From Ehretia macrophylla (taxonomy: Eukaryota; Streptophyta; Magnoliopsida; Boraginales; Ehretiaceae), in assembly GCA_037974665.1 (NCBI GenBank), contig CM075775.1:36234152-36298151 (forward strand): DNA of 64,000 nt, written 5' to 3'. The notes beneath the pieces are model-generated. The model was not told where the DNA came from. It saw nothing but the letters and a program-made list of their open reading frames with translations, and made no database searches. A program made the translations under genes and the position numbers. Below are positions 5,773 through 41,315 of the stretch, one piece after another (the stretch's first letter is position 1; each line of letters begins with the position of its first letter).

Positions 5773-5783
5773 TTCTAATGGTA

Positions 5784-6255: not shown

Positions 6256-6301
6256 TATTTCCTACTAACTAAAAACACACATTACACACTTTACACACAC
6301 A

Positions 6302-6799: not shown

Positions 6800-6935
6800 G
6801 TGTTTCCCGTCAGCTATCCGAGCGTTACAGGCCCTATCCGGTCGCCTGGATAGAGGCCTCAACGCCCGGCAGAAAACTCCGATCCGGGCGTTATTGGCTT
6901 CTTTCGGGCGCCCGGATTAGGGCCTCAGTGCCCGG
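6800..6935 (+). repeat. CpG-rich CCGGGCG motif cluster in the A 5' LTR
   Basis: Several direct and inverted copies of CGCCCGGAT and its complement crowd this otherwise AT-rich LTR. The 3' LTR copy at about 11745-11875 contains the perfect 12-bp palindrome CCGGGCGCCCGG at 11839-11850. The dense CG and CHG sites would be good methylation targets. Function is not known. Confidence 0.6.
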
Positions 6936-12564: not shown

Positions 12565-15071
12565 TGTCACGCCCCAACCCGGCCTATAAAGGTTAGACTA
12601 GGGTGTGATCTAAACAATCAAGTCCTTTCACATTCTTAATCATTCTAGGAGGTTTAACACTTAACGTTTTATTCTAGACTCCAAAACTTTCCGAAAATTC
12701 GGCAGCATGACGGCTGTAATTGAGCTTTTTGTTTTGACCTAAATTTTCTAACAGCCTCAAAATTTACCATTTCAAATTCAATTCCAGCTAAGATTACTAT
12801 TATTCCATCAATTGAATTGCCTATTGGTTAATTCGACGTCCCGTTTGATTTATAACCTAACATGATACTATGTCTCGTTTGTTCATTTATCCTCATTTCA
12901 AAATATACCTGTTGATCTTAGCTTATTAGCGAGTACCTGCTAAGATTGGATAAGTTCATTAACCTATTTCTTAACTAAGCATCATAACCTGTGATAGATA
13001 CTAGCGGTAGTAAAAGCAAAACGATCATAGTAGTGTCATGTCTAGTATCAGTCTACTTAAAATAAGTACAACCCAAAATTAGACCCCAAATTACAGCGGG
13101 GGTCTTTTACATCACAAGCAACAACAACATAAGGGAAATAGTCTTTAAGTAACAAAAGTTCACAAGAAGTCACGTTCAAGCAAAACAACGATAACAAGCA
13201 ATCATTCCAGAGGTTCATCATTAGGTACATTGAGCTCGGGTTCCTGTGTCTGTTCTTCTTCACCTGAAATGATGAAAGAGGGTGAGTCCTTATGAACTCA
13301 GCGAGGGGGAAACGAGAAATAAGTTTGAAACTCGTTTTCCGGTTAAACTTATGAAAATCCCTTTTTCAAACATGAATACAACAGAAGTACAAGTACAGAA
13401 ATACAAATACAGAAACAGGAATACCAGTCTTTCCTCCCCGAGGTTCTCTAGGATCCAAGCGGGAGTACTTATACATATAATAAAAAGGATACGGTGAGCT
13501 TTTGCTCTCAGATCAGATCCAGGATCAACTGTTGCGGCCGACTTCAAATCATTCCCCAAACACACCAGGTGGGTGTACTCCGGATGTACCCCAAAATCCT
13601 ACGACCCAACTCTCCGAGGAAGTCTAGCCCCCAAGCGAGAGAGGGAATGGGACCATGGTGGTCACGGTATCACCGGCAAGCCCGATGCCGCCCGGCGTAC
13701 GTGATCACTACCATGCCAACAGGAAAGGTTGCAACCTTGTATGCAATGCACATTTATGACAGGTAATATATATCACAGAAGGAGGACAACAAAGTAGGTT
13801 GCCTCCGGACAGTCATAAGATTGCACATTGACAGATAAACAGGCAGGACAAGATAGGACAGGAAATTTCACTTGAAAGGCATATAGAGTTATATGGAAAT
13901 TAAACGGGCAGCCATGTAACACATGTAAAACAGGCCATATAACTCATTAAAAGTCCACGCAATCAAGTGATAAGATTACTCAACATGTAGTGATATCAAC
14001 AAGGGTTCAAATGCGAGAAAAGCTTATTTGTCAACATGCAATGGTCAAGATCACTTTTAAAGTTATAAAACATTTACGGGTAGCCCACGCAACGTATAGT
14101 TTCCTCACAATATCCAATGGTTAACACTTAGCAAGAATATTTAATCATTAGGGTTTCCATTTCATGCATAATCGTGCGATCAAACCCTAAGTCAACTTAA
14201 CATCATTCCCAAGTCATACATCATTCAATTCATACATCCTCAAGTGCTTAAAACAGTCCACATAATATTCCAACACCACAATTCCAAGCAACTAGTGCCA
14301 CAAAAGAGGTTACAATAGTTTTCCAAGCACATAGCTAAGTGGAACACTTACTGCAATAGGCTGTTTTCTCATGATCAATGGGATAATCAAACAATCTCCA
14401 AATTCAGTGAATAAGATGTCAAATTAAAGCTTAAGAAGTTATCTAAAATCAGAAACAATCCTTGCATCAATTGGAGTTCAGAATCATTAGTTATAACCGA
14501 AACAGTGAGGTAACACAAAACTGTCCAGATTTTCACACTTTTCAGAAAATGACGTTTTTGAGGTCCTTAGAGTCGTTTTTAGCTTTGGTCTATTTCTGAC
14601 AAAGTTGTCCAGAACTGAAAAATCTAGCAGCACACCAATTTTCATACATTTTGGACAACATTTACTAAGTCAAATATGGTTCGTTCCACAAGGTCAGTGC
14701 ATCTGCCAAAACCTGATTCATTTTTCCAGATTTCCAGATTTGGTCACATTTTAATGATTTGCCATTTTGAGGACCTTAGAGTCAAAATTTGCTTCGACCT
14801 ATTTCTGGGAAAAATGTTCAAAACTGCCCAAACTAGTCACCTACCAATTTTGAAGCATTTTCAACACCATTTGCTTAGCTAAACTTACCTCGAACAGACT
14901 GGTCAGAGAGCTGTCACATAAATTCGACTTCACCTAGCATCATTTTCAAGCCAAGTTCTTGCCATGCATGGTTGTTTAAGCTCATGGACGACCACATAAC
15001 TCAAGTACAGAAGCAAACATACTCATTTGTGAACATGCATGTGAAATTTCAAAGAGTTTTCAAAAGCTTTT

Positions 15072-15083
15072 AACCCTCACCTT
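15072..15083 (-). other. Splice-donor-like box in B LTR 1
   Basis: On the - strand this reads AAGGTGAGGGTT, identical to the box in element A's LTRs. A second donor-like site, CCTAGGTGAGTTAC, lies upstream in element direction at 15252-15265. Equivalent boxes occur in LTRs 2-4, and the solo LTR has AAGGTGAGGGCT at 58885-58896. A role in splicing the leader is inference. Confidence 0.4.
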
Positions 15084-15924
15084 AGCAATCAACCACAAAA
15101 TGCTCAAGACCCTTTGTTGAAGCTCAAACCTTCTCCTTTCCCTTGCTTAGCCGAGAACCTCACTAGTTTTTCTCTATTTTTCCTAGCTTAATGTTCAAAC
15201 TCTTAGCACAAGCATGATGTTAAACTATGAAGAAAAGAAATGGATGCTTAGTAACTCACCTAGGCCGAAATGGAGCTCCAAATGCGCATGCAAGAGAAAT
15301 TTTCGAACTCTAGCTTGTTTGCTTGGTTTTCTTGATGGTTTGCTTGCCTTGTTCGACCAAGGTGTGATGAAGATGGACAAAGATGATGAGATTTCAGCCA
15401 AGGACCGAAATGGAGAGAGAAGAATGAGAGGAGAGAGAGTTTGTGAGAGGAAATGAAAGAAATGACAAAGAAATGAAGGTCTTGGCATTTTTTGAGGTGT
15501 ATGTCGGCATTGGGCTTCAAAATTCTGCAATTTGTGTCTCCAATGTGATATTTTGAAATTGTTAGGATGGGCAAGGATGAAGTGGTCGAAAATTTGTGCA
15601 AGTGGAAGGATTTTGAGCAATTTTTTAATGGCTTTGTGTCATAAGTTGTCTTGGCATGCATTAGAATAAAGAATTTTTTGCTCAAACCTTGTGCAAGACC
15701 ATGGTATGGTCGGCCAAGGCTAATAAAATGGCTGAATTTGTGTCATCTTTTGGGTGTTGATTGTTGTGTGTTGAATTTGCAAAAAGAACAAAGAATAAAG
15801 AATAAGGAATGTCTAGTGTTTGGTGCCTTTTTGTCTTCTAGTGAATGGAATTTTGATTATTATATTGTTAGTGGATTTTGTAGAATTGTTTAATAGTCTA
15901 GTGTTTCGTGAAAGATGCTTTCTT

Positions 15925-16135
15925 GATTAGTGTGTAGGCACGCTTTTCTAGGTTTAGGGCACGCACTTCTAGGTAGGACACGAACTACGAGACGAACGCA
16001 CGTTTTTCAAGTAAACGCTCGTAACCCTATATGAATGCACGAAATTCAATGCAAGGCACACAACTAAATACAATTCTCAAACCTAGGTCATGGCACGCAC
16101 ATCTAGGTTAGGGCACGCAAAAAGAGATATCGCAC
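15925..16135 (-). repeat. Short degenerate repeats at the start of B U3
   Basis: Loose copies of a GGGCACGCA-TCTAGGTTAG-like unit of about 20-25 bp line the beginning of the LTR in element orientation. The same zone occurs in the other three LTRs and, diverged, in the solo LTR (about 59725-59930). The A LTR has repeats of a different motif in the same position. They might be enhancer-like; this is inference. Confidence 0.5.
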
Positions 16136-16158
16136 GCAATTCGGGGTCGGGCTTCACA

Positions 16159-16171
16159 TCCTCCCCTCCTT
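16159..16171 (-). other. Polypurine tract, B unit 1
   Basis: On the - strand this is AAGGAGGGGAGGA, directly abutting LTR 1. It is identical to the tract of element A. Confidence 0.92.
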
Positions 16172-16192
16172 AAAAGAATTTCGTCCCGAAAT

Positions 16193-19100
16193 TCAATATT
16201 TACCTTGAAATAAAGCTGGATATTGCTGCTCCATCTGGTCTCGCCTTTCCCACGTTGCTTCCTCAACTCCATGATGATCCCACAGCACTTTCACCATCGG
16301 TATGGTTCTGTTGCGCAACTCCCGATCCTGCTGGTCTAGGATCCGAATGGGCTTCTCCTCGTAAGACAAGTTTTCCCGAAGCTGCAACGGCTCTGGCTCC
16401 AAGATATGCGACGGGTCAGGATGATACTTCCGTAGCATCGACACATGAAAGACGTCATGAATATTGGAGAGGTTCTGGGGTAGTGCTAGTCGATACGCCA
16501 ACTTGCCAATCTTCTCAACTATCTCAAACGGTCCTACAAATCTCGGGCTCAACTTTCCACCCTTGCCATGTTTAATCAGTCCCCTCCGGGGTGATATCTT
16601 CAAGAACACCCTGTCGCCAACCTCAAACTCGAGACTCCGTCTCCGTCGGTCTGCATAACTCTTCTGCCTGCTCTGGGCGGTAAGCATCCGTTTCCGGATG
16701 AGATGGATGTTATCAACAGTCTTCATCAGTTCAGGTAAAAGGGTCGGGTCAAAAGTCCTCGCCTCACCTACTTCATCCCAGTAAATTGGTGATCGACATT
16801 TCCGTCCATACAGCGCCTCAAATGGGGCCATCCCGATCGTGGCCTGATAACTATTGTTGTAGGCGAACTCTGCTAGAGATAGATATTTCTCCCAACCTTT
16901 CCCGAAGTCCAACACACATGCCCTCAGCATGTCCTCCAAAATCTGAATAGTTCTCTCCGATTGACCATCCGTCTGAGGGTGATAAGCCGTGCTAAAACTT
17001 AATTTCGTCCCCAAAGCTTCTTGCAATCTTCTCCAAAATCGGGAAGTAAAACGAGGATCCCTATCCGATACAATACTCACAGGCATCCCGTGCAATCTTA
17101 CAATCTCCGCCACATACATATCTCCCAGTTTCTCAGGATTATCCTCCTTGTTTATTGGTAAAAAGTGTGCCGACTTAGTCAATCTATCTACTATAACCCA
17201 AGCGGCGTCACGACCCTTCTGTGATCTAGGCAGGTCCATAACAAAATCCATAGTGATATGTTCCCATTTCCATTGAGGAATCTCCAACGGCTGAAGTAAA
17301 CCTGCAGGTCGTTGATGTTCCGCTTTGACTCTCTGGCAGGTTAAACACCGTGCTACAAACTCCGCAATTTCTCTTTTCATGTTATTCCACCAATAGTGTT
17401 GCTTCAAATCCCGGTACATCTTGGTTCCACCGGGGTGAATAGTATATCTTGAATTATGTGCTTCCTCAAGAATCTTCTTTTTCAGCTCTGGCTCATTGGG
17501 AACACAAACCCGGTTCCTAAACCTCCAAACACCATCGTCGTGAAACTTGAAATCCGCATTGCTTTCCTTAATCTTTTGAAATTGTTGGTCCTTCTGTTGA
17601 GCCTCTCGTAACTCAGATAACAAAGTCGATTGAACTTGGGTAGTGGAAAAAAGTAACCCCTTCTGAGTTAATTGTGGTTTCCATAGAAACGCTTCCTCCA
17701 ACAACTCCTGCACTTTGACTTCCAGTTTCGCCATGCTTGCTTTTCTGCTTAAGGCATCTGCAACTACGTTCGCCTTACCGGGCACATAATTAATTGAGCA
17801 GTTATAATCATCCAAAAGCTCCATCCACCGCCTTTGCCTCATATTCAATTCCTTTTGAGAAAACAAGTATTTCAAGCTCTTATGATAGGTAAATACCTCA
17901 AACTTGTTACCCCACAGATAATGCCTCCATTTCTTGAGTGCAAACACAATGGCCGCTAACTCCAAGTCATGCGTCGGGTAATTCGTCTCATACGGTTTTG
18001 GTTTCCTAGAAGCATATGCAATAACTCTTCCATTTTGCATCAATACACATCCCAATCCTTCTTTCGAAGCATCACTATAGATTACGAAACCTTGACTCCC
18101 TTCAGGCAATGCAAGAACTGGTGCAGTAGTCAATCTCTTCTTCAACTCTTGGAAGCTGTTCTCACACTTATCATCCCACACGAACTTGGTTTTCTTTTGA
18201 GTGAGCTTTGTAAGTGGTCCTGCAATCTTAGAGAAATCCTTCACGAACCTCCGATAATAGCCGGCTAGACCAAGAAAACTCCGGACTTCCGTAACATTTT
18301 CTGGCTTCTTCCAAGACATCACTGCATCGATCTTTGCTGGATCTACCGCTATTCCCTCTTGGGATATGATATGCCCCAAAAATGCAATCTGCTGCAACCA
18401 GAATTCACACTTGCTAAACTTTGCATACAATTGATGCTCTCGAAGTTTCTGCAGTACCAACCGCAGATGTTGTTCATGCTCCGCCTCCGATTTCGAGTAT
18501 ACCAAAATATCATCAATGAAGATCACCACAAATTGGTCCAAGTAGGGTTGAAACACCCTATGCATCAAATCCATAAAGGCTGCAGGGGCATTAGTTAGTC
18601 CAAAAGGCATCACTACATACTCATAGTGCCCATATCTCGTCCTGAAAGCTGTTTTAGGCACATCTTCCTTCTTGATCCGCAACTGATAATACCCTTGCCT
18701 CAAGTCGAGTTTCGAATACACTTTGGCTCCTTGCAGTTGATCAAATAACTCGTCAATCAGGGGAAGTGGGTATTTATTCTTGACAGTCACTTGGTTCAAT
18801 CCTCGGTAGTCAATGCATAGCCTCAACGTTCCGTCTTTCTTCTTAACAAATAACACGGGCGCACCCCACGGTGAAGAGCTCGGTTGTACAAATCCCTTCT
18901 TCAGCAATCCTTGCAATTGGTCCTTCAATTCTTGTAGCTCGGCCGGTGCCATACGATAGGGAGCTCTCGATATCGGCTGGGCGTCAGGCAGCAACTCTAT
19001 AACAAACTCGATCTCCCGATTTGGGGGTAAACCGGGTAACTCTTCAGGGAACACATCTGCATAATCTTTGATTACAGGCATCTCCTCCAACTTAGCTTTA

Positions 19101-20713
19101 TCCGACGGCTTGTTGATAAGGTAAGCCAAGTATCCGCTGCATCCTTTCCTCAAGGACTTCACTGCTTTTGTAGATGAAATGATGGAACTCCCGGTGAAAT
19201 CTCTTCGACCCATAATCTCCAGTATCGGTTGATCAGGTACCCGGAACGTTATGATCTTCGCCCGGCAATCCAGTTGGACATGATGTTTTGCCAGCCAGTC
19301 CATCCCTAAAATGACCTCGTAGTCTCGAAAAGGTAATACAATAAGATTGGCCGAGAATTCCCTATCCTTAATTTGGATTTTACATGCTTTACAAGCTGAA
19401 CTAGTTACAAGTTTAGAACCCATTGGAGTACCAACTTCTACTTCAAATGGCAAACATACAACTTTCAATTTCACACGTTCCACACATAATGGAGTAATAA
19501 ATGAATGAGTAGCACCCGGATCAATTAACACCTTAACAGGTTGATTCAGTATGAAGAATGTACCTTCAACAACAGCGGTCTCATCTGGGATCTCCTCGCA
19601 CTCGATAGCATAGGCTCGGGCCTGGACCCTGGGAACTGGAGTCTTACCTCTACCGGCTGGTTTACCCTGATTCTGCCCTGCCTGACGTTTAGGGCAATCC
19701 TTGATCTGGTGCTGATCACTGCCGCACCTCATACATCGTCCCAACTTTCTCCAACACTGGGCCTCGGTATGCCCCTTCCTGTCACAATATGAGCAGCTGA
19801 CGGACTGAGTAGCAGGTGAACTACCTGTGGATCCGCGGGTGGAAGAGGCTGATGGCGCTTTAGTCGGGCCACGGTTATTCCCTGGTCTGTTCTGGCTCTG
19901 GCCCTGACTGCGACTCTGACTCTGAAACTTCCTCTGCTGACCTGGAGGCTGGTAAGGTTTCTTGCTCGGCTGACTCGAATCGGCTCCATCTAGTTTCCTC
20001 TTCTCAACTCGAGAGGCAGCAGCAAAGAGAGCAGAATAAGTATCGAAGTCATGAGAAGCTAACTGGTCTTGAATCTCTGGCCTCAATCCAATAGTAAATT
20101 TCCACATTTTTGCCTCCGGAGTACAAACCATATACTGAGCATAACGGGACAGTCGATCAAAACGAGCCTCGTACTGGGCCACCGTCATATTACCCTGGGT
20201 CAAGTGCATGAACTCCTCGATCCGCCTCTGCCTAGAAACTGCAGGTACATATTTTTCCTTAAATGCCTTAACAAAACTACCCCACAAGCGAGGTGTCCGA
20301 TCAGTCTCCCATAGTGCCTCTACAGTGTGCCACCAATGCTCGGCATCCCCGTGCAACAGAAATACAGCAAACTCCAATTTCTCTTCATCTGTATAATCAA
20401 GTGGCCTAAAAATCTTCTCGATCTCGGACAGCCAAGCCTCTGCTTTCTCATCATCAGCTTCCCCGTAGAATTTAGACGGGCGAAAGTCAAGGAATTCCCT
20501 CATTCTGCTGTGTCTCCCATGGTTACCCTCATTCCTGTTGTTGATGTTGTTGTTGGCCTCACGAGCATCCTGACGCTCCATCACACGTGACACGCGATCC
20601 ATGGCAGTTGCCATCATGTTAAACATAGCTATACCGGGATTAGTCTGATAAGCATCCCCGGTCTCTTGAGGTTCACCACTCCTATTAGTAGTACGGGTAC
20701 TAGGGCCAGCCAT
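16193..20713 (-). CDS. Gag-Pol polyprotein of element B, unit 1 (Tekay/Del chromovirus)
   Basis: This is a single 1506-residue frame holding all proteins for copying and inserting the element. By residue: Gag domain about 70-235; CCHC zinc knuckles at 307-320 and 327-340; aspartic protease with DPGATHSF near 398; reverse transcriptase about 580-790 with [10 protein letters not shown] and the catalytic FIDDILVYS near 732; RNase H about 865-990 beginning near YSDAS; integrase zinc-binding region about 1085-1127 and a D-D-E core at D1156, D1217 and E1253 (35 residues between the last two); and a C-terminal chromodomain-like region about 1450-1503 ending in [20 protein letters not shown]. Fused Gag-Pol, domain order and chromodomain place it in the chromoviruses, probably Tekay/Del. 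The start MAGPST lies about 210 bp after the primer site. The frame looks whole. Such proteins form cytoplasmic virus-like particles, and integrase acts in the nucleus. Confidence 0.96.
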
Positions 20714-20925
20714 CTATAGGCACAATTTGTTGAAATATGATAATTAAGAATCTAATGCATAAGATATGCAACATTTTATAGATACAATTCTAAAAACATT
20801 TAAGGCATATAAGTCACTTAAGCACATAAAGCATAGAAGGTACATTTAACACATAAAAAAGTCATCCTAATTATCTTAGGGCTCAACCCATGGTCCGAGA
20901 GTTAAACCCGGCTTAAGCAATCTAA

Positions 20926-20937
20926 GCTCTGATACCA
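20926..20937 (-). other. Primer binding site, B unit 1 (tRNA-iMet)
   Basis: TGGTATCAGAGC on the - strand lies 11 bp inside LTR 2, which acts as the 5' LTR of this unit. It complements initiator methionine tRNA. Confidence 0.9.
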
Positions 20938-20948
20938 TTCTTCTAAGG

Positions 20949-23900
20949 TGTCACGCCCCAACCCGGCCTATAAAGGTTAGACTAGGGTGTGATCTAAACA
21001 ATCAAGTCCTTTCACATTCTTAATCATTCTAGGAGGTTTAACACTTAACGTTTTATTCTAGACTCCAAAACTTTCCGAAAATTCGGCAGCATGACGGCTG
21101 TAATTGAGCTTTTTGTTTTGACCTAAATTTTCTAACAGCCTCAAAATTTACCATTTCAAATTCAATTCCAGCTAAGATTACTATTATTCCATCAATTGAA
21201 TTGCCTATTGGTTAATTCGACGTCCCGTTTGATTTATAACCTAACATGATACTATGTCTCGTTTGTTCATTTATCCTCATTTCAAAATATACCTGTTGAT
21301 CTTAGCTTATTAGCGAGTACCTGCTAAGATTGGATAAGTTCATTAACCTATTTCTTAACTAAGCATCATAACCTGTGATAGATACTAGCGGTAGTAAAAG
21401 CAAAACGATCATAGTAGTGTCATGTCTAGTATCAGTCTACTTAAAATAAGTACAACCCAAAATTAGACCCCAAATTACAGCGGGGGTCTTTTACATCACA
21501 AGCAACAACAACATAAGGGAAATAGTCTTTAAGTAACAAAAGTTCACAAGAAGTCACGTTCAAGCAAAACAACGATAACAAGCAATCATTCCAGAGGTTC
21601 ATCATTAGGTACATTGAGCTCGGGTTCCTGTGTCTGTTCTTCTTCACCTGAAATGATGAAAGAGGGTGAGTCCTTATGAACTCAGCGAGGGGGAAACGAG
21701 AAATAAGTTTGAAACTCGTTTTCCGGTTAAACTTATGAAAATCCCTTTTTCAAACATGAATACAACAGAAGTACAAGTACAGAAATACAAATACAGAAAC
21801 AGGAATACCAGTCTTTCCTCCCCGAGGTTCTCTAGGATCCAAGCGGGAGTACTTATACATATAATAAAAAGGATACGGTGAGCTTTTGCTCTCAGATCAG
21901 ATCCAGGATCAACTGTTGCGGCCGACTTCAAATCATTCCCCAAACACACCAGGTGGGTGTACTCCGGATGTACCCCAAAATCCTACGACCCAACTCTCCG
22001 AGGAAGTCTAGCCCCCAAGCGAGAGAGGGAATGGGACCATGGTGGTCACGGTATCACCGGCAAGCCCGATGCCGCCCGGCGTACGTGATCACTACCATGC
22101 CAACAGGAAAGGTTGCAACCTTGTATGCAATGCACATTTATGACAGGTAATATATATCACAGAAGGAGGACAACAAAGTAGGTTGCCTCCGGACAGTCAT
22201 AAGATTGCACATTGACAGATAAACAGGCAGGACAAGATAGGACAGGAAATTTCACTTGAAAGGCATATAGAGTTATATGGAAATTAAACGGGCAGCCATG
22301 TAACACATGTAAAACAGGCCATATAACTCATTAAAAGTCCACGCAATCAAGTGATAAGATTACTCAACATGTAGTGATATCAACAAGGGTTCAAATGCGA
22401 GAAAAGCTTATTTGTCAACATGCAATGGTCAAGATCACTTTTAAAGTTATAAAACATTTACGGGTAGCCCACGCAACGTATAGTTTCCTCACAATATCCA
22501 ATGGTTAACACTTAGCAAGAATATTTAATCATTAGGGTTTCCATTTCATGCATAATCGTGCGATCAAACCCTAAGTCAACTTAACATCATTCCCAAGTCA
22601 TACATCATTCAATTCATACATCCTCAAGTGCTTAAAACAGTCCACATAATATTCCAACACCACAATTCCAAGCAACTAGTGCCACAAAAGAGGTTACAAT
22701 AGTTTTCCAAGCACATAGCTAAGTGGAACACTTACTGCAATAGGCTGTTTTCTCATGATCAATGGGATAATCAAACAATCTCCAAATTCAGTGAATAAGA
22801 TGTCAAATTAAAGCTTAAGAAGTTATCTAAAATCAGAAACAATCCTTGCATCAATTGGAGTTCAGAATCATTAGTTATAACCGAAACAGTGAGGTAACAC
22901 AAAACTGTCCAGATTTTCACACTTTTCAGAAAATGACGTTTTTGAGGTCCTTAGAGTCGTTTTTAGCTTTGGTCTATTTCTGACAAAGTTGTCCAGAACT
23001 GAAAAATCTAGCAGCACACCAATTTTCATACATTTTGGACAACATTTACTAAGTCAAATATGGTTCGTTCCACAAGGTCAGTGCATCTGCCAAAACCTGA
23101 TTCATTTTTCCAGATTTCCAGATTTGGTCACATTTTAATGATTTGCCATTTTGAGGACCTTAGAGTCAAAATTTGCTTCGACCTATTTCTGGGAAAAATG
23201 TTCAAAACTGCCCAAACTAGTCACCTACCAATTTTGAAGCATTTTCAACACCATTTGCTTAGCTAAACTTACCTCGAACAGACTGGTCAGAGAGCTGTCA
23301 CATAAATTCGACTTCACCTAGCATCATTTTCAAGCCAAGTTCTTGCCATGCATGGTTGTTTAAGCTCATGGACGACCACATAACTCAAGTACAGAAGCAA
23401 ACATACTCATTTGTGAACATGCATGTGAAATTTCAAAGAGTTTTCAAAAGCTTTTAACCCTCACCTTAGCAATCAACCACAAAATGCTCAAGACCCTTTG
23501 TTGAAGCTCAAACCTTCTCCTTTCCCTTGCTTAGCCGAGAACCTCACTAGTTTTTCTCTATTTTTCCTAGCTTAATGTTCAAACTCTTAGCACAATCATG
23601 ATGTTAAACTATGAAGAAAAGAAATGGATGCTTAGTAACTCACCTAGGCCGAAATGGAGCTCCAAATGCGCATGCAAGAGAAATTTTCGAACTCTAGCTT
23701 GTTTGCTTGGTTTTCTTGATGGTTTGCTTGCCTTGTTCGACCAAGGTGTGATGAAGATGGACAAAGATGATGAGATTTCAGCCAAGGACCGAAATGGAGA
23801 GAGAAGAATGAGAGGAGAGAGAGTTTGTGAGAGGAAATGAAAGAAATGACAAAGAAATGAAGGTCTTGGCATTTTTTGAGGTGTATGTCGGCATTGGGCT

Positions 23901-24542
23901 TCAAAATTCTGCAATTTGTGTCTCCAATGTGATATTTTGAAATTGTTAGGATGGGCAAGGATGAAGTGGTCGAAAATTTGTGCAAGTGGAAGGATTTTGA
24001 GCAATTTTTTAATGGCTTTGTGTCATAAGTTGTCTTGGCATGCATTAGAATAAAGAATTTTTTGCTCAAACCTTGTGCAAGACCATGGTATGGTCGGCCA
24101 AGGCTAATAAAATGGCTGAATTTGTGTCATCTTTTGGGTGTTGATTGTTGTGTGTTGAATTTGCAAAAAGAACAAAGAATAAAGAATAAGGAATGTCTAG
24201 TGTTTGGTGCCTTTTTGTCTTCTAGTGAATGGAATTTTGATTATTATATTGTTAGTGGATTTTGTAGAATTGTTTAATAGTCTAGTGTTTCGTGAAAGAT
24301 GCTTTCTTGATTAGTGTGTAGGCACGCTTTTCTAGGTTTAGGGCACGCACTTCTAGGTAGGACACGAACTACGAGACGAACGCACGTTTTTCAAGTAAAC
24401 GCTCGTAACCCTATATGAATGCACGAAATTCAATGCAAGGCACACAACTAAATACAATTCTCAAACCTAGGTCATGGCACGCACATCTAGGTTAGGGCAC
24501 GCAAAAAGAGATATCGCACGCAATTCGGGGTCGGGCTTCACA
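20949..24542 (-). repeat. Element B LTR 2 (internal, shared)
   Basis: This LTR serves as 5' LTR of unit 1 and 3' LTR of unit 2. It is the same length as LTR 1 at an offset of 8384 bp. It carries T at 23596, where LTRs 1 and 4 have G, a variant shared with LTR 3 only. Confidence 0.96.
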
Positions 24543-24555
24543 TCCTCCCCTCCTT
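24543..24555 (-). other. Polypurine tract, B unit 2
   Basis: AAGGAGGGGAGGA on the - strand adjoins LTR 2, as in unit 1. Confidence 0.92.
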
Positions 24556-24576
24556 AAAAGAATTTCGTCCCGAAAT

Positions 24577-29097: not shown

Positions 29098-29309
29098 CTA
29101 TAGGCACAATTTGTTGAAATATGATAATTAAGAATCTAATGCATAAGATATGCAACATTTTATAGATACAATTCTAAAAACATTTAAGGCATATAAGTCA
29201 CTTAAGCACATAAAGCATAGAAGGTACATTTAACACATAAAAAAGTCATCCTAATTATCTTAGGGCTCAACCCATGGTCCGAGAGTTAAACCCGGCTTAA
29301 GCAATCTAA

Positions 29310-29321
29310 GCTCTGATACCA
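29310..29321 (-). other. Primer binding site, B unit 2
   Basis: TGGTATCAGAGC on the - strand, 11 bp from LTR 3, complements initiator methionine tRNA. Confidence 0.9.
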
Positions 29322-29332
29322 TTCTTCTAAGG

Positions 29333-32300
29333 TGTCACGCCCCAACCCGGCCTATAAAGGTTAGACTAGGGTGTGATCTAAACAATCAAGTCCTTTCACA
29401 TTCTTAATCATTCTAGGAGGTTTAACACTTAACGTTTTATTCTAGACTCCAAAACTTTCCGAAAATTCGGCAGCATGACGGCTGTAATTGAGCTTTTTGT
29501 TTTGACCTAAATTTTCTAACAGCCTCAAAATTTACCATTTCAAATTCAATTCCAGCTAAGATTACTATTATTCCATCAATTGAATTGCCTATTGGTTAAT
29601 TCGACGTCCCGTTTGATTTATAACCTAACATGATACTATGTCTCGTTTGTTCATTTATCCTCATTTCAAAATATACCTGTTGATCTTAGCTTATTAGCGA
29701 GTACCTGCTAAGATTGGATAAGTTCATTAACCTATTTCTTAACTAAGCATCATAACCTGTGATAGATACTAGCGGTAGTAAAAGCAAAACGATCATAGTA
29801 GTGTCATGTCTAGTATCAGTCTACTTAAAATAAGTACAACCCAAAATTAGACCCCAAATTACAGCGGGGGTCTTTTACATCACAAGCAACAACAACATAA
29901 GGGAAATAGTCTTTAAGTAACAAAAGTTCACAAGAAGTCACGTTCAAGCAAAACAACGATAACAAGCAATCATTCCAGAGGTTCATCATTAGGTACATTG
30001 AGCTCGGGTTCCTGTGTCTGTTCTTCTTCACCTGAAATGATGAAAGAGGGTGAGTCCTTATGAACTCAGCGAGGGGGAAACGAGAAATAAGTTTGAAACT
30101 CGTTTTCCGGTTAAACTTATGAAAATCCCTTTTTCAAACATGAATACAACAGAAGTACAAGTACAGAAATACAAATACAGAAACAGGAATACCAGTCTTT
30201 CCTCCCCGAGGTTCTCTAGGATCCAAGCGGGAGTACTTATACATATAATAAAAAGGATACGGTGAGCTTTTGCTCTCAGATCAGATCCAGGATCAACTGT
30301 TGCGGCCGACTTCAAATCATTCCCCAAACACACCAGGTGGGTGTACTCCGGATGTACCCCAAAATCCTACGACCCAACTCTCCGAGGAAGTCTAGCCCCC
30401 AAGCGAGAGAGGGAATGGGACCATGGTGGTCACGGTATCACCGGCAAGCCCGATGCCGCCCGGCGTACGTGATCACTACCATGCCAACAGGAAAGGTTGC
30501 AACCTTGTATGCAATGCACATTTATGACAGGTAATATATATCACAGAAGGAGGACAACAAAGTAGGTTGCCTCCGGACAGTCATAAGATTGCACATTGAC
30601 AGATAAACAGGCAGGACAAGATAGGACAGGAAATTTCACTTGAAAGGCATATAGAGTTATATGGAAATTAAACGGGCAGCCATGTAACACATGTAAAACA
30701 GGCCATATAACTCATTAAAAGTCCACGCAATCAAGTGATAAGATTACTCAACATGTAGTGATATCAACAAGGGTTCAAATGCGAGAAAAGCTTATTTGTC
30801 AACATGCAATGGTCAAGATCACTTTTAAAGTTATAAAACATTTACGGGTAGCCCACGCAACGTATAGTTTCCTCACAATATCCAATGGTTAACACTTAGC
30901 AAGAATATTTAATCATTAGGGTTTCCATTTCATGCATAATCGTGCGATCAAACCCTAAGTCAACTTAACATCATTCCCAAGTCATACATCATTCAATTCA
31001 TACATCCTCAAGTGCTTAAAACAGTCCACATAATATTCCAACACCACAATTCCAAGCAACTAGTGCCACAAAAGAGGTTACAATAGTTTTCCAAGCACAT
31101 AGCTAAGTGGAACACTTACTGCAATAGGCTGTTTTCTCATGATCAATGGGATAATCAAACAATCTCCAAATTCAGTGAATAAGATGTCAAATTAAAGCTT
31201 AAGAAGTTATCTAAAATCAGAAACAATCCTTGCATCAATTGGAGTTCAGAATCATTAGTTATAACCGAAACAGTGAGGTAACACAAAACTGTCCAGATTT
31301 TCACACTTTTCAGAAAATGACGTTTTTGAGGTCCTTAGAGTCGTTTTTAGCTTTGGTCTATTTCTGACAAAGTTGTCCAGAACTGAAAAATCTAGCAGCA
31401 CACCAATTTTCATACATTTTGGACAACATTTACTAAGTCAAATATGGTTCGTTCCACAAGGTCAGTGCATCTGCCAAAACCTGATTCATTTTTCCAGATT
31501 TCCAGATTTGGTCACATTTTAATGATTTGCCATTTTGAGGACCTTAGAGTCAAAATTTGCTTCGACCTATTTCTGGGAAAAATGTTCAAAACTGCCCAAA
31601 CTAGTCACCTACCAATTTTGAAGCATTTTCAACACCATTTGCTTAGCTAAACTTACCTCGAACAGACTGGTCAGAGAGCTGTCACATAAATTCGACTTCA
31701 CCTAGCATCATTTTCAAGCCAAGTTCTTGCCATGCATGGTTGTTTAAGCTCATGGACGACCACATAACTCAAGTACAGAAGCAAACATACTCATTTGTGA
31801 ACATGCATGTGAAATTTCAAAGAGTTTTCAAAAGCTTTTAACCCTCACCTTAGCAATCAACCACAAAATGCTCAAGACCCTTTGTTGAAGCTCAAACCTT
31901 CTCCTTTCCCTTGCTTAGCCGAGAACCTCACTAGTTTTTCTCTATTTTTCCTAGCTTAATGTTCAAACTCTTAGCACAATCATGATGTTAAACTATGAAG
32001 AAAAGAAATGGATGCTTAGTAACTCACCTAGGCCGAAATGGAGCTCCAAATGCGCATGCAAGAGAAATTTTCGAACTCTAGCTTGTTTGCTTGGTTTTCT
32101 TGATGGTTTGCTTGCCTTGTTCGACCAAGGTGTGATGAAGATGGACAAAGATGATGAGATTTCAGCCAAGGACCGAAATGGAGAGAGAAGAATGAGAGGA
32201 GAGAGAGTTTGTGAGAGGAAATGAAAGAAATGACAAAGAAATGAAGGTCTTGGCATTTTTTGAGGTGTATGTCGGCATTGGGCTTCAAAATTCTGCAATT

Positions 32301-32926
32301 TGTGTCTCCAATGTGATATTTTGAAATTGTTAGGATGGGCAAGGATGAAGTGGTCGAAAATTTGTGCAAGTGGAAGGATTTTGAGCAATTTTTTAATGGC
32401 TTTGTGTCATAAGTTGTCTTGGCATGCATTAGAATAAAGAATTTTTTGCTCAAACCTTGTGCAAGACCATGGTATGGTCGGCCAAGGCTAATAAAATGGC
32501 TGAATTTGTGTCATCTTTTGGGTGTTGATTGTTGTGTGTTGAATTTGCAAAAAGAACAAAGAATAAAGAATAAGGAATGTCTAGTGTTTGGTGCCTTTTT
32601 GTCTTCTAGTGAATGGAATTTTGATTATTATATTGTTAGTGGATTTTGTAGAATTGTTTAATAGTCTAGTGTTTCGTGAAAGATGCTTTCTTGATTAGTG
32701 TGTAGGCACGCTTTTCTAGGTTTAGGGCACGCACTTCTAGGTAGGACACGAACTACGAGACGAACGCACGTTTTTCAAGTAAACGCTCGTAACCCTATAT
32801 GAATGCACGAAATTCAATGCAAGGCACACAACTAAATACAATTCTCAAACCTAGGTCATGGCACGCACATCTAGGTTAGGGCACGCAAAAAGAGATATCG
32901 CACGCAATTCGGGGTCGGGCTTCACA
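29333..32926 (-). repeat. Element B LTR 3 (internal, shared)
   Basis: This 3594-bp LTR lies between units 2 and 3. It shares T at 31980 with LTR 2 and otherwise appears the same as LTR 1 by eye. Confidence 0.96.
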
Positions 32927-32939
32927 TCCTCCCCTCCTT
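32927..32939 (-). other. Polypurine tract, B unit 3
   Basis: AAGGAGGGGAGGA on the - strand adjoins LTR 3. Confidence 0.92.
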
Positions 32940-32960
32940 AAAAGAATTTCGTCCCGAAAT

Positions 32961-35900
32961 TCAATATTTACCTTGAAATAAAGCTGGATATTGCTGCTCC
33001 ATCTGGTCTCGCCTTTCCCACGTTGCTTCCTCAACTCCATGATGATCCCACAGCACTTTCACCATCGGTATGGTTCTGTTGCGCAACTCCCGATCCTGCT
33101 GGTCTAGGATCCGAATGGGCTTCTCCTCGTAAGACAAGTTTTCCCGAAGCTGCAACGGCTCTGGCTCCAAGATATGCGACGGGTCAGGATGATACTTCCG
33201 TAGCATCGACACATGAAAGACGTCATGAATATTGGAGAGGTTCTGGGGTAGTGCTAGTCGATACGCCAACTTGCCAATCTTCTCAACTATCTCAAACGGT
33301 CCTACAAATCTCGGGCTCAACTTTCCACCCTTGCCATGTTTAATCAGTCCCCTCCGGGGTGATATCTTCAAGAACACCCTGTCGCCAACCTCAAACTCGA
33401 GACTCCGTCTCCGTCGGTCTGCATAACTCTTCTGCCTGCTCTGGGCGGTAAGCATCCGTTTCCGGATGAGATGGATGTTATCAACAGTCTTCATCAGTTC
33501 AGGTAAAAGGGTCGGGTCAAAAGTCCTCGCCTCACCTACTTCATCCCAGTAAATTGGTGATCGACATTTCCGTCCATACAGCGCCTCAAATGGGGCCATC
33601 CCGATCGTGGCCTGATAACTATTGTTGTAGGCGAACTCTGCTAGAGATAGATATTTCTCCCAACCTTTCCCGAAGTCCAACACACATGCCCTCAGCATGT
33701 CCTCCAAAATCTGAATAGTTCTCTCCGATTGACCATCCGTCTGAGGGTGATAAGCCGTGCTAAAACTTAATTTCGTCCCCAAAGCTTCTTGCAATCTTCT
33801 CCAAAATCGGGAAGTAAAACGAGGATCCCTATCCGATACAATACTCACAGGCATCCCGTGCAATCTTACAATCTCCGCCACATACATATCTCCCAGTTTC
33901 TCAGGATTATCCTCCTTGTTTATTGGTAAAAAGTGTGCCGACTTAGTCAATCTATCTACTATAACCCAAGCGGCGTCACGACCCTTCTGTGATCTAGGCA
34001 GGTCCATAACAAAATCCATAGTGATATGTTCCCATTTCCATTGAGGAATCTCCAACGGCTGAAGTAAACCTGCAGGTCGTTGATGTTCCGCTTTGACTCT
34101 CTGGCAGGTTAAACACCGTGCTACAAACTCCGCAATTTCTCTTTTCATGTTATTCCACCAATAGTGTTGCTTCAAATCCCGGTACATCTTGGTTCCACCG
34201 GGGTGAATAGTATATCTTGAATTATGTGCTTCCTCAAGAATCTTCTTTTTCAGCTCTGGCTCATTGGGAACACAAACCCGGTTCCTAAACCTCCAAACAC
34301 CATCGTCGTGAAACTTGAAATCCGCATTGCTTTCCTTAATCTTTTGAAATTGTTGGTCCTTCTGTTGAGCCTCTCGTAACTCAGATAACAAAGTCGATTG
34401 AACTTGGGTAGTGGAAAAAAGTAACCCCTTCTGAGTTAATTGTGGTTTCCATAGAAACGCTTCCTCCAACAACTCCTGCACTTTGACTTCCAGTTTCGCC
34501 ATGCTTGCTTTTCTGCTTAAGGCATCTGCAACTACGTTCGCCTTACCGGGCACATAATTAATTGAGCAGTTATAATCATCCAAAAGCTCCATCCACCGCC
34601 TTTGCCTCATATTCAATTCCTTTTGAGAAAACAAGTATTTCAAGCTCTTATGATAGGTAAATACCTCAAACTTGTTACCCCACAGATAATGCCTCCATTT
34701 CTTGAGTGCAAACACAATGGCCGCTAACTCCAAGTCATGCGTCGGGTAATTCGTCTCATACGGTTTTGGTTTCCTAGAAGCATATGCAATAACTCTTCCA
34801 TTTTGCATCAATACACATCCCAATCCTTCTTTCGAAGCATCACTATAGATTACGAAACCTTGACTCCCTTCAGGCAATGCAAGAACTGGTGCAGTAGTCA
34901 ATCTCTTCTTCAACTCTTGGAAGCTGTTCTCACACTTATCATCCCACACGAACTTGGTTTTCTTTTGAGTGAGCTTTGTAAGTGGTCCTGCAATCTTAGA
35001 GAAATCCTTCACGAACCTCCGATAATAGCCGGCTAGACCAAGAAAACTCCGGACTTCCGTAACATTTTCTGGCTTCTTCCAAGACATCACTGCATCGATC
35101 TTTGCTGGATCTACCGCTATTCCCTCTTGGGATATGATATGCCCCAAAAATGCAATCTGCTGCAACCAGAATTCACACTTGCTAAACTTTGCATACAATT
35201 GATGCTCTCGAAGTTTCTGCAGTACCAACCGCAGATGTTGTTCATGCTCCGCCTCCGATTTCGAGTATACCAAAATATCATCAATGAAGATCACCACAAA
35301 TTGGTCCAAGTAGGGTTGAAACACCCTATGCATCAAATCCATAAAGGCTGCAGGGGCATTAGTTAGTCCAAAAGGCATCACTACATACTCATAGTGCCCA
35401 TATCTCGTCCTGAAAGCTGTTTTAGGCACATCTTCCTTCTTGATCCGCAACTGATAATACCCTTGCCTCAAGTCGAGTTTCGAATACACTTTGGCTCCTT
35501 GCAGTTGATCAAATAACTCGTCAATCAGGGGAAGTGGGTATTTATTCTTGACAGTCACTTGGTTCAATCCTCGGTAGTCAATGCATAGCCTCAACGTTCC
35601 GTCTTTCTTCTTAACAAATAACACGGGCGCACCCCACGGTGAAGAGCTCGGTTGTACAAATCCCTTCTTCAGCAATCCTTGCAATTGGTCCTTCAATTCT
35701 TGTAGCTCGGCCGGTGCCATACGATAGGGAGCTCTCGATATCGGCTGGGCGTCAGGCAGCAACTCTATAACAAACTCGATCTCCCGATTTGGGGGTAAAC
35801 CGGGTAACTCTTCAGGGAACACATCTGCATAATCTTTGATTACAGGCATCTCCTCCAACTTAGCTTTATCCGACGGCTTGTTGATAAGGTAAGCCAAGTA

Positions 35901-37481
35901 TCCGCTGCATCCTTTCCTCAAGGACTTCACTGCTTTTGTAGATGAAATGATGGAACTCCCGGTGAAATCTCTTCGACCCATAATCTCCAGTATCGGTTGA
36001 TCAGGTACCCGGAACGTTATGATCTTCGCCCGGCAATCCAGTTGGACATGATGTTTTGCCAGCCAGTCCATCCCTAAAATGACCTCGTAGTCTCGAAAAG
36101 GTAATACAATAAGATTGGCCGAGAATTCCCTATCCTTAATTTGGATTTTACATGCTTTACAAGCTGAACTAGTTACAAGTTTAGAACCCATTGGAGTACC
36201 AACTTCTACTTCAAATGGCAAACATACAACTTTCAATTTCACACGTTCCACACATAATGGAGTAATAAATGAATGAGTAGCACCCGGATCAATTAACACC
36301 TTAACAGGTTGATTCAGTATGAAGAATGTACCTTCAACAACAGCGGTCTCATCTGGGATCTCCTCGCACTCGATAGCATAGGCTCGGGCCTGGACCCTGG
36401 GAACTGGAGTCTTACCTCTACCGGCTGGTTTACCCTGATTCTGCCCTGCCTGACGTTTAGGGCAATCCTTGATCTGGTGCTGATCACTGCCGCACCTCAT
36501 ACATCGTCCCAACTTTCTCCAACACTGGGCCTCGGTATGCCCCTTCCTGTCACAATATGAGCAGCTGACGGACTGAGTAGCAGGTGAACTACCTGTGGAT
36601 CCGCGGGTGGAAGAGGCTGATGGCGCTTTAGTCGGGCCACGGTTATTCCCTGGTCTGTTCTGGCTCTGGCCCTGACTGCGACTCTGACTCTGAAACTTCC
36701 TCTGCTGACCTGGAGGCTGGTAAGGTTTCTTGCTCGGCTGACTCGAATCGGCTCCATCTAGTTTCCTCTTCTCAACTCGAGAGGCAGCAGCAAAGAGAGC
36801 AGAATAAGTATCGAAGTCATGAGAAGCTAACTGGTCTTGAATCTCTGGCCTCAATCCAATAGTAAATTTCCACATTTTTGCCTCCGGAGTACAAACCATA
36901 TACTGAGCATAACGGGACAGTCGATCAAAACGAGCCTCGTACTGGGCCACCGTCATATTACCCTGGGTCAAGTGCATGAACTCCTCGATCCGCCTCTGCC
37001 TAGAAACTGCAGGTACATATTTTTCCTTAAATGCCTTAACAAAACTACCCCACAAGCGAGGTGTCCGATCAGTCTCCCATAGTGCCTCTACAGTGTGCCA
37101 CCAATGCTCGGCATCCCCGTGCAACAGAAATACAGCAAACTCCAATTTCTCTTCATCTGTATAATCAAGTGGCCTAAAAATCTTCTCGATCTCGGACAGC
37201 CAAGCCTCTGCTTTCTCATCATCAGCTTCCCCGTAGAATTTAGACGGGCGAAAGTCAAGGAATTCCCTCATTCTGCTGTGTCTCCCATGGTTACCCTCAT
37301 TCCTGTTGTTGATGTTGTTGTTGGCCTCACGAGCATCCTGACGCTCCATCACACGTGACACGTGATCCATGGCAGTTGCCATCATGTTAAACATAGCTAT
37401 ACCGGGATTAGTCTGATAAGCATCCCCGGTCTCTTGAGGTTCACCACTCCTATTAGTAGTACGGGTACTAGGGCCAGCCAT
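32961..37481 (-). CDS. Gag-Pol polyprotein of element B, unit 3
   Basis: This is an uninterrupted 1506-residue frame, identical in domain content to units 1 and 2. It differs from unit 1 at a single residue in the N-terminal Gag region. It looks whole. In element orientation it is the first unit, lying directly after the outer 5' LTR (LTR 4), so it has the arrangement most like an ordinary single insertion. Frames on the opposite strand within it are shadows. Confidence 0.95.
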
Positions 37482-37693
37482 CTATAGGCACAATTTGTTG
37501 AAATATGATAATTAAGAATCTAATGCATAAGATATGCAACATTTTATAGATACAATTCTAAAAACATTTAAGGCATATAAGTCACTTAAGCACATAAAGC
37601 ATAGAAGGTACATTTAACACATAAAAAAGTCATCCTAATTATCTTAGGGCTCAACCCATGGTCCGAGAGTTAAACCCGGCTTAAGCAATCTAA

Positions 37694-37705
37694 GCTCTGA
37701 TACCA
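37694..37705 (-). other. Primer binding site, B unit 3
   Basis: TGGTATCAGAGC on the - strand, 11 bp from LTR 4, complements initiator methionine tRNA. Confidence 0.9.
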
Positions 37706-37716
37706 TTCTTCTAAGG

Positions 37717-40700
37717 TGTCACGCCCCAACCCGGCCTATAAAGGTTAGACTAGGGTGTGATCTAAACAATCAAGTCCTTTCACATTCTTAATCATTCTAG
37801 GAGGTTTAACACTTAACGTTTTATTCTAGACTCCAAAACTTTCCGAAAATTCGGCAGCATGACGGCTGTAATTGAGCTTTTTGTTTTGACCTAAATTTTC
37901 TAACAGCCTCAAAATTTACCATTTCAAATTCAATTCCAGCTAAGATTACTATTATTCCATCAATTGAATTGCCTATTGGTTAATTCGACGTCCCGTTTGA
38001 TTTATAACCTAACATGATACTATGTCTCGTTTGTTCATTTATCCTCATTTCAAAATATACCTGTTGATCTTAGCTTATTAGCGAGTACCTGCTAAGATTG
38101 GATAAGTTCATTAACCTATTTCTTAACTAAGCATCATAACCTGTGATAGATACTAGCGGTAGTAAAAGCAAAACGATCATAGTAGTGTCATGTCTAGTAT
38201 CAGTCTACTTAAAATAAGTACAACCCAAAATTAGACCCCAAATTACAGCGGGGGTCTTTTACATCACAAGCAACAACAACATAAGGGAAATAGTCTTTAA
38301 GTAACAAAAGTTCACAAGAAGTCACGTTCAAGCAAAACAACGATAACAAGCAATCATTCCAGAGGTTCATCATTAGGTACATTGAGCTCGGGTTCCTGTG
38401 TCTGTTCTTCTTCACCTGAAATGATGAAAGAGGGTGAGTCCTTATGAACTCAGCGAGGGGGAAACGAGAAATAAGTTTGAAACTCGTTTTCCGGTTAAAC
38501 TTATGAAAATCCCTTTTTCAAACATGAATACAACAGAAGTACAAGTACAGAAATACAAATACAGAAACAGGAATACCAGTCTTTCCTCCCCGAGGTTCTC
38601 TAGGATCCAAGCGGGAGTACTTATACATATAATAAAAAGGATACGGTGAGCTTTTGCTCTCAGATCAGATCCAGGATCAACTGTTGCGGCCGACTTCAAA
38701 TCATTCCCCAAACACACCAGGTGGGTGTACTCCGGATGTACCCCAAAATCCTACGACCCAACTCTCCGAGGAAGTCTAGCCCCCAAGCGAGAGAGGGAAT
38801 GGGACCATGGTGGTCACGGTATCACCGGCAAGCCCGATGCCGCCCGGCGTACGTGATCACTACCATGCCAACAGGAAAGGTTGCAACCTTGTATGCAATG
38901 CACATTTATGACAGGTAATATATATCACAGAAGGAGGACAACAAAGTAGGTTGCCTCCGGACAGTCATAAGATTGCACATTGACAGATAAACAGGCAGGA
39001 CAAGATAGGACAGGAAATTTCACTTGAAAGGCATATAGAGTTATATGGAAATTAAACGGGCAGCCATGTAACACATGTAAAACAGGCCATATAACTCATT
39101 AAAAGTCCACGCAATCAAGTGATAAGATTACTCAACATGTAGTGATATCAACAAGGGTTCAAATGCGAGAAAAGCTTATTTGTCAACATGCAATGGTCAA
39201 GATCACTTTTAAAGTTATAAAACATTTACGGGTAGCCCACGCAACGTATAGTTTCCTCACAATATCCAATGGTTAACACTTAGCAAGAATATTTAATCAT
39301 TAGGGTTTCCATTTCATGCATAATCGTGCGATCAAACCCTAAGTCAACTTAACATCATTCCCAAGTCATACATCATTCAATTCATACATCCTCAAGTGCT
39401 TAAAACAGTCCACATAATATTCCAACACCACAATTCCAAGCAACTAGTGCCACAAAAGAGGTTACAATAGTTTTCCAAGCACATAGCTAAGTGGAACACT
39501 TACTGCAATAGGCTGTTTTCTCATGATCAATGGGATAATCAAACAATCTCCAAATTCAGTGAATAAGATGTCAAATTAAAGCTTAAGAAGTTATCTAAAA
39601 TCAGAAACAATCCTTGCATCAATTGGAGTTCAGAATCATTAGTTATAACCGAAACAGTGAGGTAACACAAAACTGTCCAGATTTTCACACTTTTCAGAAA
39701 ATGACGTTTTTGAGGTCCTTAGAGTCGTTTTTAGCTTTGGTCTATTTCTGACAAAGTTGTCCAGAACTGAAAAATCTAGCAGCACACCAATTTTCATACA
39801 TTTTGGACAACATTTACTAAGTCAAATATGGTTCGTTCCACAAGGTCAGTGCATCTGCCAAAACCTGATTCATTTTTCCAGATTTCCAGATTTGGTCACA
39901 TTTTAATGATTTGCCATTTTGAGGACCTTAGAGTCAAAATTTGCTTCGACCTATTTCTGGGAAAAATGTTCAAAACTGCCCAAACTAGTCACCTACCAAT
40001 TTTGAAGCATTTTCAACACCATTTGCTTAGCTAAACTTACCTCGAACAGACTGGTCAGAGAGCTGTCACATAAATTCGACTTCACCTAGCATCATTTTCA
40101 AGCCAAGTTCTTGCCATGCATGGTTGTTTAAGCTCATGGACGACCACATAACTCAAGTACAGAAGCAAACATACTCATTTGTGAACATGCATGTGAAATT
40201 TCAAAGAGTTTTCAAAAGCTTTTAACCCTCACCTTAGCAATCAACCACAAAATGCTCAAGACCCTTTGTTGAAGCTCAAACCTTCTCCTTTCCCTTGCTT
40301 AGCCGAGAACCTCACTAGTTTTTCTCTATTTTTCCTAGCTTAATGTTCAAACTCTTAGCACAAGCATGATGTTAAACTATGAAGAAAAGAAATGGATGCT
40401 TAGTAACTCACCTAGGCCGAAATGGAGCTCCAAATGCGCATGCAAGAGAAATTTTCGAACTCTAGCTTGTTTGCTTGGTTTTCTTGATGGTTTGCTTGCC
40501 TTGTTCGACCAAGGTGTGATGAAGATGGACAAAGATGATGAGATTTCAGCCAAGGACCGAAATGGAGAGAGAAGAATGAGAGGAGAGAGAGTTTGTGAGA
40601 GGAAATGAAAGAAATGACAAAGAAATGAAGGTCTTGGCATTTTTTGAGGTGTATGTCGGCATTGGGCTTCAAAATTCTGCAATTTGTGTCTCCAATGTGA

Positions 40701-41310
40701 TATTTTGAAATTGTTAGGATGGGCAAGGATGAAGTGGTCGAAAATTTGTGCAAGTGGAAGGATTTTGAGCAATTTTTTAATGGCTTTGTGTCATAAGTTG
40801 TCTTGGCATGCATTAGAATAAAGAATTTTTTGCTCAAACCTTGTGCAAGACCATGGTATGGTCGGCCAAGGCTAATAAAATGGCTGAATTTGTGTCATCT
40901 TTTGGGTGTTGATTGTTGTGTGTTGAATTTGCAAAAAGAACAAAGAATAAAGAATAAGGAATGTCTAGTGTTTGGTGCCTTTTTGTCTTCTAGTGAATGG
41001 AATTTTGATTATTATATTGTTAGTGGATTTTGTAGAATTGTTTAATAGTCTAGTGTTTCGTGAAAGATGCTTTCTTGATTAGTGTGTAGGCACGCTTTTC
41101 TAGGTTTAGGGCACGCACTTCTAGGTAGGACACGAACTACGAGACGAACGCACGTTTTTCAAGTAAACGCTCGTAACCCTATATGAATGCACGAAATTCA
41201 ATGCAAGGCACACAACTAAATACAATTCTCAAACCTAGGTCATGGCACGCACATCTAGGTTAGGGCACGCAAAAAGAGATATCGCACGCAATTCAGGGTC
41301 GGGCTTCACA
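37717..41310 (-). repeat. Element B LTR 4 (outer 5' LTR)
   Basis: This is the last 3594-bp LTR, followed directly by the GATGG duplication. It carries G at 40364, like LTR 1, and a private A at 41295 where the other three have G. It would drive transcription leftward into unit 3. Confidence 0.96.
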
Positions 41311-41315
41311 GATGG
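41311..41315. repeat. Right target-site duplication of element B
   Basis: GATGG is an exact copy of 12560-12564 and is followed by the rest of A's 3' LTR. Confidence 0.95.

Follow-up and report, generated by a model that had tools for sequence, protein, structure and literature searches.

A very young retrotransposon tandem with shared long terminal repeats in Ehretia macrophylla and its probable growth by unequal exchange

Introduction

How does a retrotransposon come to stand three times in a row at a single site, with neighbouring units sharing the long terminal repeat (LTR) between them? The question is raised by a 64,000-nucleotide stretch of the Ehretia macrophylla genome (GenBank assembly GCA_037974665.1, contig CM075775.1, positions 36,234,152 to 36,298,151, forward strand; hereafter the window), in which positions 12565-41310 form one block of LTR-retrotransposon sequence. 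A first-pass annotation, made from the letters of the window, had read this block as one chromovirus insertion enlarged by unequal exchange, with insertion of an already tandem DNA as the alternative. Our answer, to which we give a probability of about two in three, is that a recent single insertion was followed by stepwise unequal homologous exchange in place.

Results

Structure, insertion, and age of the array

The 28,746-bp block consists of four direct 3,594-bp LTRs in strict alternation with three 4,790-bp internal domains (Table 1). Coordinates and variable columns bear out the annotated architecture: the period is exactly 8,384 bp, there are zero indels among units, and only five columns vary over the 28,746 bp. 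Self-identity within the window is highest at offsets of 8384 (0.52) and 16768 (0.44), which rules out a chance repeat; the next value (0.32) falls at a multiple of the satellite period. The element has TG...CA ends, a primer binding site (PBS), which we take to be of the initiator-tRNA-Met type, a polypurine tract, and a 5-bp target duplication. Alternating internals, shared LTRs, and an LTR at both ends make it a tandem LTR retrotransposon in the sense given in the relevant sections of Morales-Diaz et al. (2025; PMC11899658). The number of units is that of the assembly.

A single GATGG duplication bounds the block, as the first-pass annotation had stated. That annotation had also proposed that differing duplications at the inner LTRs would betray separate insertions; the junctions of the inner LTRs carry none, with TAAGG preceding and TCCTC following an LTR. 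The exact, duplication-free inner LTR/internal junctions rule out separate side-by-side insertions. An older element hosts the block in its right LTR; the left LTR of that element supplies, within the window, a paralogous empty site: it matches the joined flanks at 2,742 of 2,817 aligned sites and has one GATTG at the same place. Because there is one flanking duplication and this paralogous empty site, the block goes back to a single insertion, in agreement with the earlier claim. Insertion into plain satellite is ruled out by the position of the block within the LTR of the older element.

The array is very young. The host LTR pair has a Kimura two-parameter (K2P) distance of 0.027, and the outer LTRs of the nested array have a single difference over 3,594 sites. 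With a substitution rate of 1.3e-8 per site and year, a value from outside this plant, the five changes over 28,746 bp put the age roughly at 13 thousand years (range 4 to 31), provided that all copies were alike at insertion.

Coding capacity and classification

The frames had been described as looking whole, and each of the three internals does encode a 1,506-aa Gag-Pol frame without internal stops; all three are on the minus strand, which the annotation had not given. All three variable internal columns are amino-acid changes (Table 1). A Pfam search with the unit-1 frame, cut into five overlapping pieces, returned Retrotrans_gag (2e-20), RVP_2 (1e-38), RVT_1 (7e-37), RT_RNaseH (3e-35), Integrase_H2C2 (8e-20), and rve (3e-9), and an integrase-type SH3 domain was also above the Pfam cut-off. 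The order gag, protease, reverse transcriptase (RT), RNase H, integrase within one element is that of Ty3/gypsy. The Chromo match is weak (E 0.004; 17.4 bits against a cut-off of 25.1) and lies at the expected C-terminal place. Some of the best 120 of 7,996 scored relatives of the C-terminal piece carry PF00385, and the species-named entries among these 120 are flowering-plant proteins. The element is a Ty3/gypsy retrotransposon, most likely of the chromovirus group; its long LTRs and its PBS type hint no more than tentatively at the Tekay/Del lineage. The LTR had no match in the plasmid collection, and neither tRNA genes (ARAGORN, bacterial code) nor Rfam families at gathering score were found in the window.

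A derived base shared by the inner LTRs

At LTR column 2648, both inner LTRs carry T and both outer LTRs carry G. The same column is G in 2/2 LTRs of a single copy at C2:81.24M, in 3/3 of a two-unit tandem at C2:83.9M, and in 4/4 of a three-unit tandem at C3:22.2M. Because the closest relatives carry G, the T appears to be derived and to have been duplicated after it arose, a pattern that stepwise growth predicts. Exact 25-mers round the two private bases of unit 2 occur at 1 and 7 other places, with no locus having both; that they are never found together elsewhere speaks against derivation of unit 2 from a different source copy.

Sibling tandems in the same assembly

The internal/LTR junction occurs at 1,319 places in the assembly at up to 2 mismatches. 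Our tandem survey covers the 100 exact junctions listed among these, on C1 to C3; they represent 93 loci, of which 6 are tandem (same-strand neighbours less than 10 kb apart), two of them trimers. Under uniform scatter, about 0.75 same-strand neighbours within 9 kb would be expected per 100 sites. The five siblings that were tested each have one 5-bp outer duplication, and outer-LTR divergence in the five measured is 0.36 to 2.5%; all are older than the window array. Two sibling tandems have shorter units, of 7,300 and 6,709 bp. The annotation had thought undecayed multi-unit arrays unusual. Two further trimers and several dimers in the same assembly do not support this view, and tandems are called common in the pertinent text of PMC11899658.

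By a 1-kb piece of the LTR (40 of 8,042 candidates scored), the nearest relatives of the window array are the C2:81.24M single copy, with LTR identities of 99.7 and 99.8%, one junction, and flank on the other side, and the C2:83.9M dimer. The next among the 40 scored are on C10 (99 and 96%) and at C1:3.48M (98%). Some further features of the family were seen in passing. All six tandem loci of the junction survey lie on the minus strand, six being too few for inference; three LTR-site matches 6,818 bp apart at C1:12372089-12385749 mark a candidate for another two-unit tandem; and the first LTRs of C2:83.9M, C3:22.2M, and C1:39.5M have a cluster of private bases close to the outer end, in columns 14-207, some common to other copies, which looks like conversion tracts.

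Divergence and breakpoints at the siblings

Exchange predicts that internals are younger than outer LTRs, and that an inner LTR joins the left part of the last LTR to the right part of the first; ready-made DNA predicts that all copies diverge together. C1:123.38M was omitted from the tests, and the C16 dimer from those of divergence and polarity. The p values are uncorrected for the number of loci. Where merging is mentioned, LTR or internal changes within 20 bp were counted as one event (the internals of C3:22.2M were left unmerged); thinning for polarity kept one change per 50 bp (C3:60.06M was left unthinned).

The C3:22.2M trimer has both signs. Its internals 1 and 3 are separated by 6 changes (5 substitutions and a 1-bp deletion) over 4,789 bp, against 27 substitutions over 3,593 for the outer LTRs (p 8e-6; 9e-4 merged). 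Of the 27 bases private to an outer LTR, 24 lie as the polarity of an exchange breakpoint predicts (permutation p 1e-4; thinned 0.008), with 15/16 private bases of LTR 4 right-hand. At the C3:60.06M dimer, internals differ at 5/2,925 and outer LTRs at 40/3,784 (p 3e-6; 0.002 merged). Since internals are less diverged than outer LTRs at both loci, they were probably duplicated there after LTR divergence had begun. The corresponding values are 42/4,789 against 59/3,596 (p 0.002) at the C1:39.5M dimer and 7/4,790 against 13/3,594 (p 0.07) at the C2 dimer; at the C1:23.25M trimer, internals differ at 60 to 87 of about 3,422 sites and outer LTRs at 96/3,876, which is nearly the same divergence (lowest pair p 0.035; merged 0.27). 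The predicted polarity was found for 12/13 bases at the C2 dimer (p 0.046; substitutions only, 11/12, 0.05; thinned 0.20), 43/58 at C1:39.5M (p 0.07; thinned 0.41), and 34/40 at C3:60.06M (p 0.20).

Exchange after insertion is thus well supported by both signs at one of five siblings (C3:22.2M) and by divergence alone at a second (C3:60.06M); C1:23.25M formed near insertion, and the case for C2 and C1:39.5M is weak. As a check on rates, the LTR has 3 and the internal 4 differences fixed between the C2 dimer and the window array, so that the two are similar per base.

Table 1. Features of the window and tandem relatives elsewhere in the assembly
Feature	Position	Strand	Remarks
Host element left LTR	5789..8620	+	holds empty site, GATTG at 7621-7625
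Host element right LTR, part left of insertion	10724..12564	+
Target-site duplication GATGG, left	12560..12564	.
LTR 1	12565..16158	-	3' LTR of element
Polypurine tract adjoining LTR 1	16159..16176; also 24543-24560, 32927-32944	-
Internal domain unit 1	16159..20948	-
Gag-Pol frame unit 1	16196..20713	-	gag, aspartic protease, RT, RNase H, integrase, SH3-like, weak chromodomain
PBS TGGTATCAGAGC	20926..20937 (unit 1), 29310-29321, 37694-37705	-	presumably initiator-tRNA-Met type
LTR 2	20949..24542	-	common to units 1 and 2; column 2648 carries T
Internal domain unit 2	24543..29332	-	private bases at 26730 and 28415
Gag-Pol frame unit 2	24580..29097	-	A228D, V790I vs units 1 and 3
LTR 3	29333..32926	-	common to units 2 and 3; identical to LTR 2
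Internal domain unit 3	32927..37716	-	private base at 37363
Gag-Pol frame unit 3	32964..37481	-	R40H
LTR 4	37717..41310	-	5' LTR of element; private base at 41295
Target-site duplication GATGG, right	41311..41315	.
Host element right LTR, part right of insertion	41316..42305	+
Variable site, LTRs 1-4	LTR column 2648		G,T,T,G
Variable site, LTRs 1-4	LTR column 3579		G,G,G,A
Variable site, units 1-3	internal column 2188		C,T,C
Variable site, units 1-3	internal column 3873		G,T,G
Variable site, units 1-3	internal column 4437		C,C,T
Sibling trimer	C3:22180638-22209375		CCTAA both sides
Sibling trimer	C1:23.247-23.273M		7,300-bp units; TTCGG both sides if last LTR base counted as changed
Sibling dimer	C2:83.923-83.943M		CTTTA duplication
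Sibling dimer	C1:39.532-39.553M		GGCCT duplication
Sibling dimer	C3:60.062-60.079M		GCGAC duplication
Sibling locus	C1:123.38M		truncated left LTR
Sibling dimer	C16:21.36-21.38M		read short of its right end

Surroundings of the array

The host element (5789-12564 and 41316-42305, plus strand) has an internal domain of just 2.1 kb and outer flanks TGCTG/TGCTT; its open reading frame at 9649-10266 (205 aa) is gag-like, below the Pfam cut-off. Satellite with a period of about 340 bp and local 232-bp variants occupies 1-5790, 42306-56397, and 62481-64000 and surrounds the nested elements. A solo LTR at 56398-59936, flanked by CGCAG on both sides, comes from a distant relative and is 76% identical to the nested LTR; a solo LTR is the other product expected from LTR-LTR exchange. 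A partial second copy of it at 60015-62480, 94% identical to 57489-60012 and with the right flank included, represents an adjacent local duplication.

Discussion

We infer that exchange in place, in two steps, made the array, rather than the arrival of ready-made tandem DNA. The history would begin with one ordinary integrase-driven insertion into the host element's right LTR, within a region of ~340-bp satellite. Soon after, misaligned copies of the locus, on sister chromatids or homologues, would have recombined homologously at their LTRs, adding one unit; a base change in the middle LTR (G to T, column 2648) would have followed, and a second unit-offset exchange would then have copied the changed LTR and added the third unit. 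Each such exchange would preserve the outer ends, the single target duplication, and the exact period, and would yield LTRs shared by neighbouring units. This order of events is the simplest path to the window array. The unequal exchange proposed by the first-pass annotation is the mechanism with the better support, from the shared derived base and from the signals in some siblings, and stops short of proof at the window locus itself.

Several observations weigh against this history. The window locus offers just one informative shared derived base, that at LTR column 2648, and the same T is present in distant copies, so that conversion from another copy is possible: the 25-mer round this column occurs at 252 places, and T was found in 6 of the 100 listed, the window's own not among them. 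Four of these six T-bearing copies align with the window over 746 to 955 bases, at 86 to 95% identity, so that their T either had a separate origin or was moved by conversion. Divergence between the outer LTRs of the window array (1/3,594, against 3/4,790 for the internals; p 0.64) is too low to place the duplication in time relative to the insertion. Among the siblings, the divergence signals of C1:39.5M and C2 fade on merging (p 0.44 and 0.11), breakpoint polarity is weak or absent at all three other loci tested for it (p 0.05, 0.07, 0.20), and mutation or conversion may proceed faster in LTRs than in internals. The private bases of the first LTR at C3:60.06M are crowded to the left (30/33) while the last LTR lacks the right-hand excess (4/7), a pattern that a plain single exchange does not predict and that slightly lowers our confidence in exchange in place. 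Four of the five tested siblings, moreover, differ from the LTR of the window array by 3 to 16%, and therefore inform on the family more than on the window sublineage. Finally, the star-like C1:23.25M trimer formed at or near insertion, and a tandem that arrived ready-made would look alike.

Such a tandem, in which multi-unit cDNA would have integrated in one step, is in our view rather unlikely at the window locus. The cDNA could be reverse-transcribed from read-through RNA of a tandem locus or of a one-LTR circle, or could consist of cDNAs joined by recombination, a route named as possible in the pertinent text of PMC11899658. One target duplication fits it equally well, the likeness of the outer LTRs to each other and of the inner LTRs to each other at column 2648 is also expected from a reverse-transcribed trimeric RNA, and the star-like C1:23.25M trimer is in keeping with it. 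However, no between-unit difference is common to the window trimer and the C2 dimer, its closest tandem relative; by exact 25-mers, the two unit-2 bases occur together nowhere else; the internals of C3:22.2M and C3:60.06M postdate their outer LTRs; and the source would itself require an array with differing inner LTRs. In the youngest clade, 2/3 loci are tandem, against 5/91 others (p 0.014; a comparison of three loci, chosen after the data were seen), which would also accord with ready-made insertion. The same two tandems among three loci (with one, two, and three units) underlie the tentative and, we think, improbable idea that the youngest sublineage makes tandems at or near insertion, arrays being a regular product of its life cycle, not late accidents of repair, and maybe mobilised as arrays.

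Units would likewise be added, with the target duplication and the shared LTRs preserved, if a circular one-LTR DNA from this family recombined into the resident element, and such circles are discussed in the text of PMC11899658 used here. A circle from another copy should import the bases of that copy, yet by exact 25-mers no other locus has both unit-2 bases, and a circle from the same locus would be indistinguishable from exchange in place; we regard circles as a very unlikely source. We find least credible the notion that the assembler expanded a one- or two-unit array. The units are >99.9% identical, and the assembly is the sole source of their number, but each of the three internals has its own combination of bases at the variable sites (C,G,C / T,T,C / C,G,T), and siblings have the same structure with internals 0.1 to 2.5% different, which an assembler cannot invent. 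Exchange in place thus remains our preferred account.

The window array is of an already described kind, and tandems recur in this genome. In the sections of PMC11899658 on which we draw, tandems with shared LTRs and single duplications are described as common and polymorphic in rice and as enriched in Tekay elements; candidates number 266 in a rice pangenome and 130 in cotton, mostly Ty3/gypsy, and the choice between exchange and ready-made insertion as their origin is left open. The window array resembles these in its LTR-internal alternation, an LTR at both ends, one short duplication, and high unit identity; unlike the two loci that those sections detail (two units, three LTRs), it has three units, four LTRs, and three uninterrupted frames. 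For Arabidopsis, the LTRtype study (PMC5379124) gives, in the part relevant here, 10 elements with three LTRs and four with a larger number. The CRM1TR and CRM4TR repeats of maize are, according to the portion of PMC3648361 that describes them, likewise tandem repeats from Ty3/gypsy elements, but their monomers are LTR-UTR (untranslated region) structures with an internal deletion, whereas the window array is made of whole units. The sibling tandems of the same assembly share LTRs as the window array does, and are older. A literature phrase search for four-LTR arrays and circle-derived tandems found nothing relevant.

The value of the window array lies in its youth, its three uninterrupted frames, and its membership in a family of graded age within one genome. 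With outer-LTR divergence ranging from ~0.03% to ~2.5% and with one-, two-, and three-unit loci, breakpoints and relative ages become readable, and the two mechanisms therefore give different, testable predictions. Three uninterrupted frames in so young an array suggest that the copy number of this retrotransposon at one site may be changed by recombination, without a new insertion.

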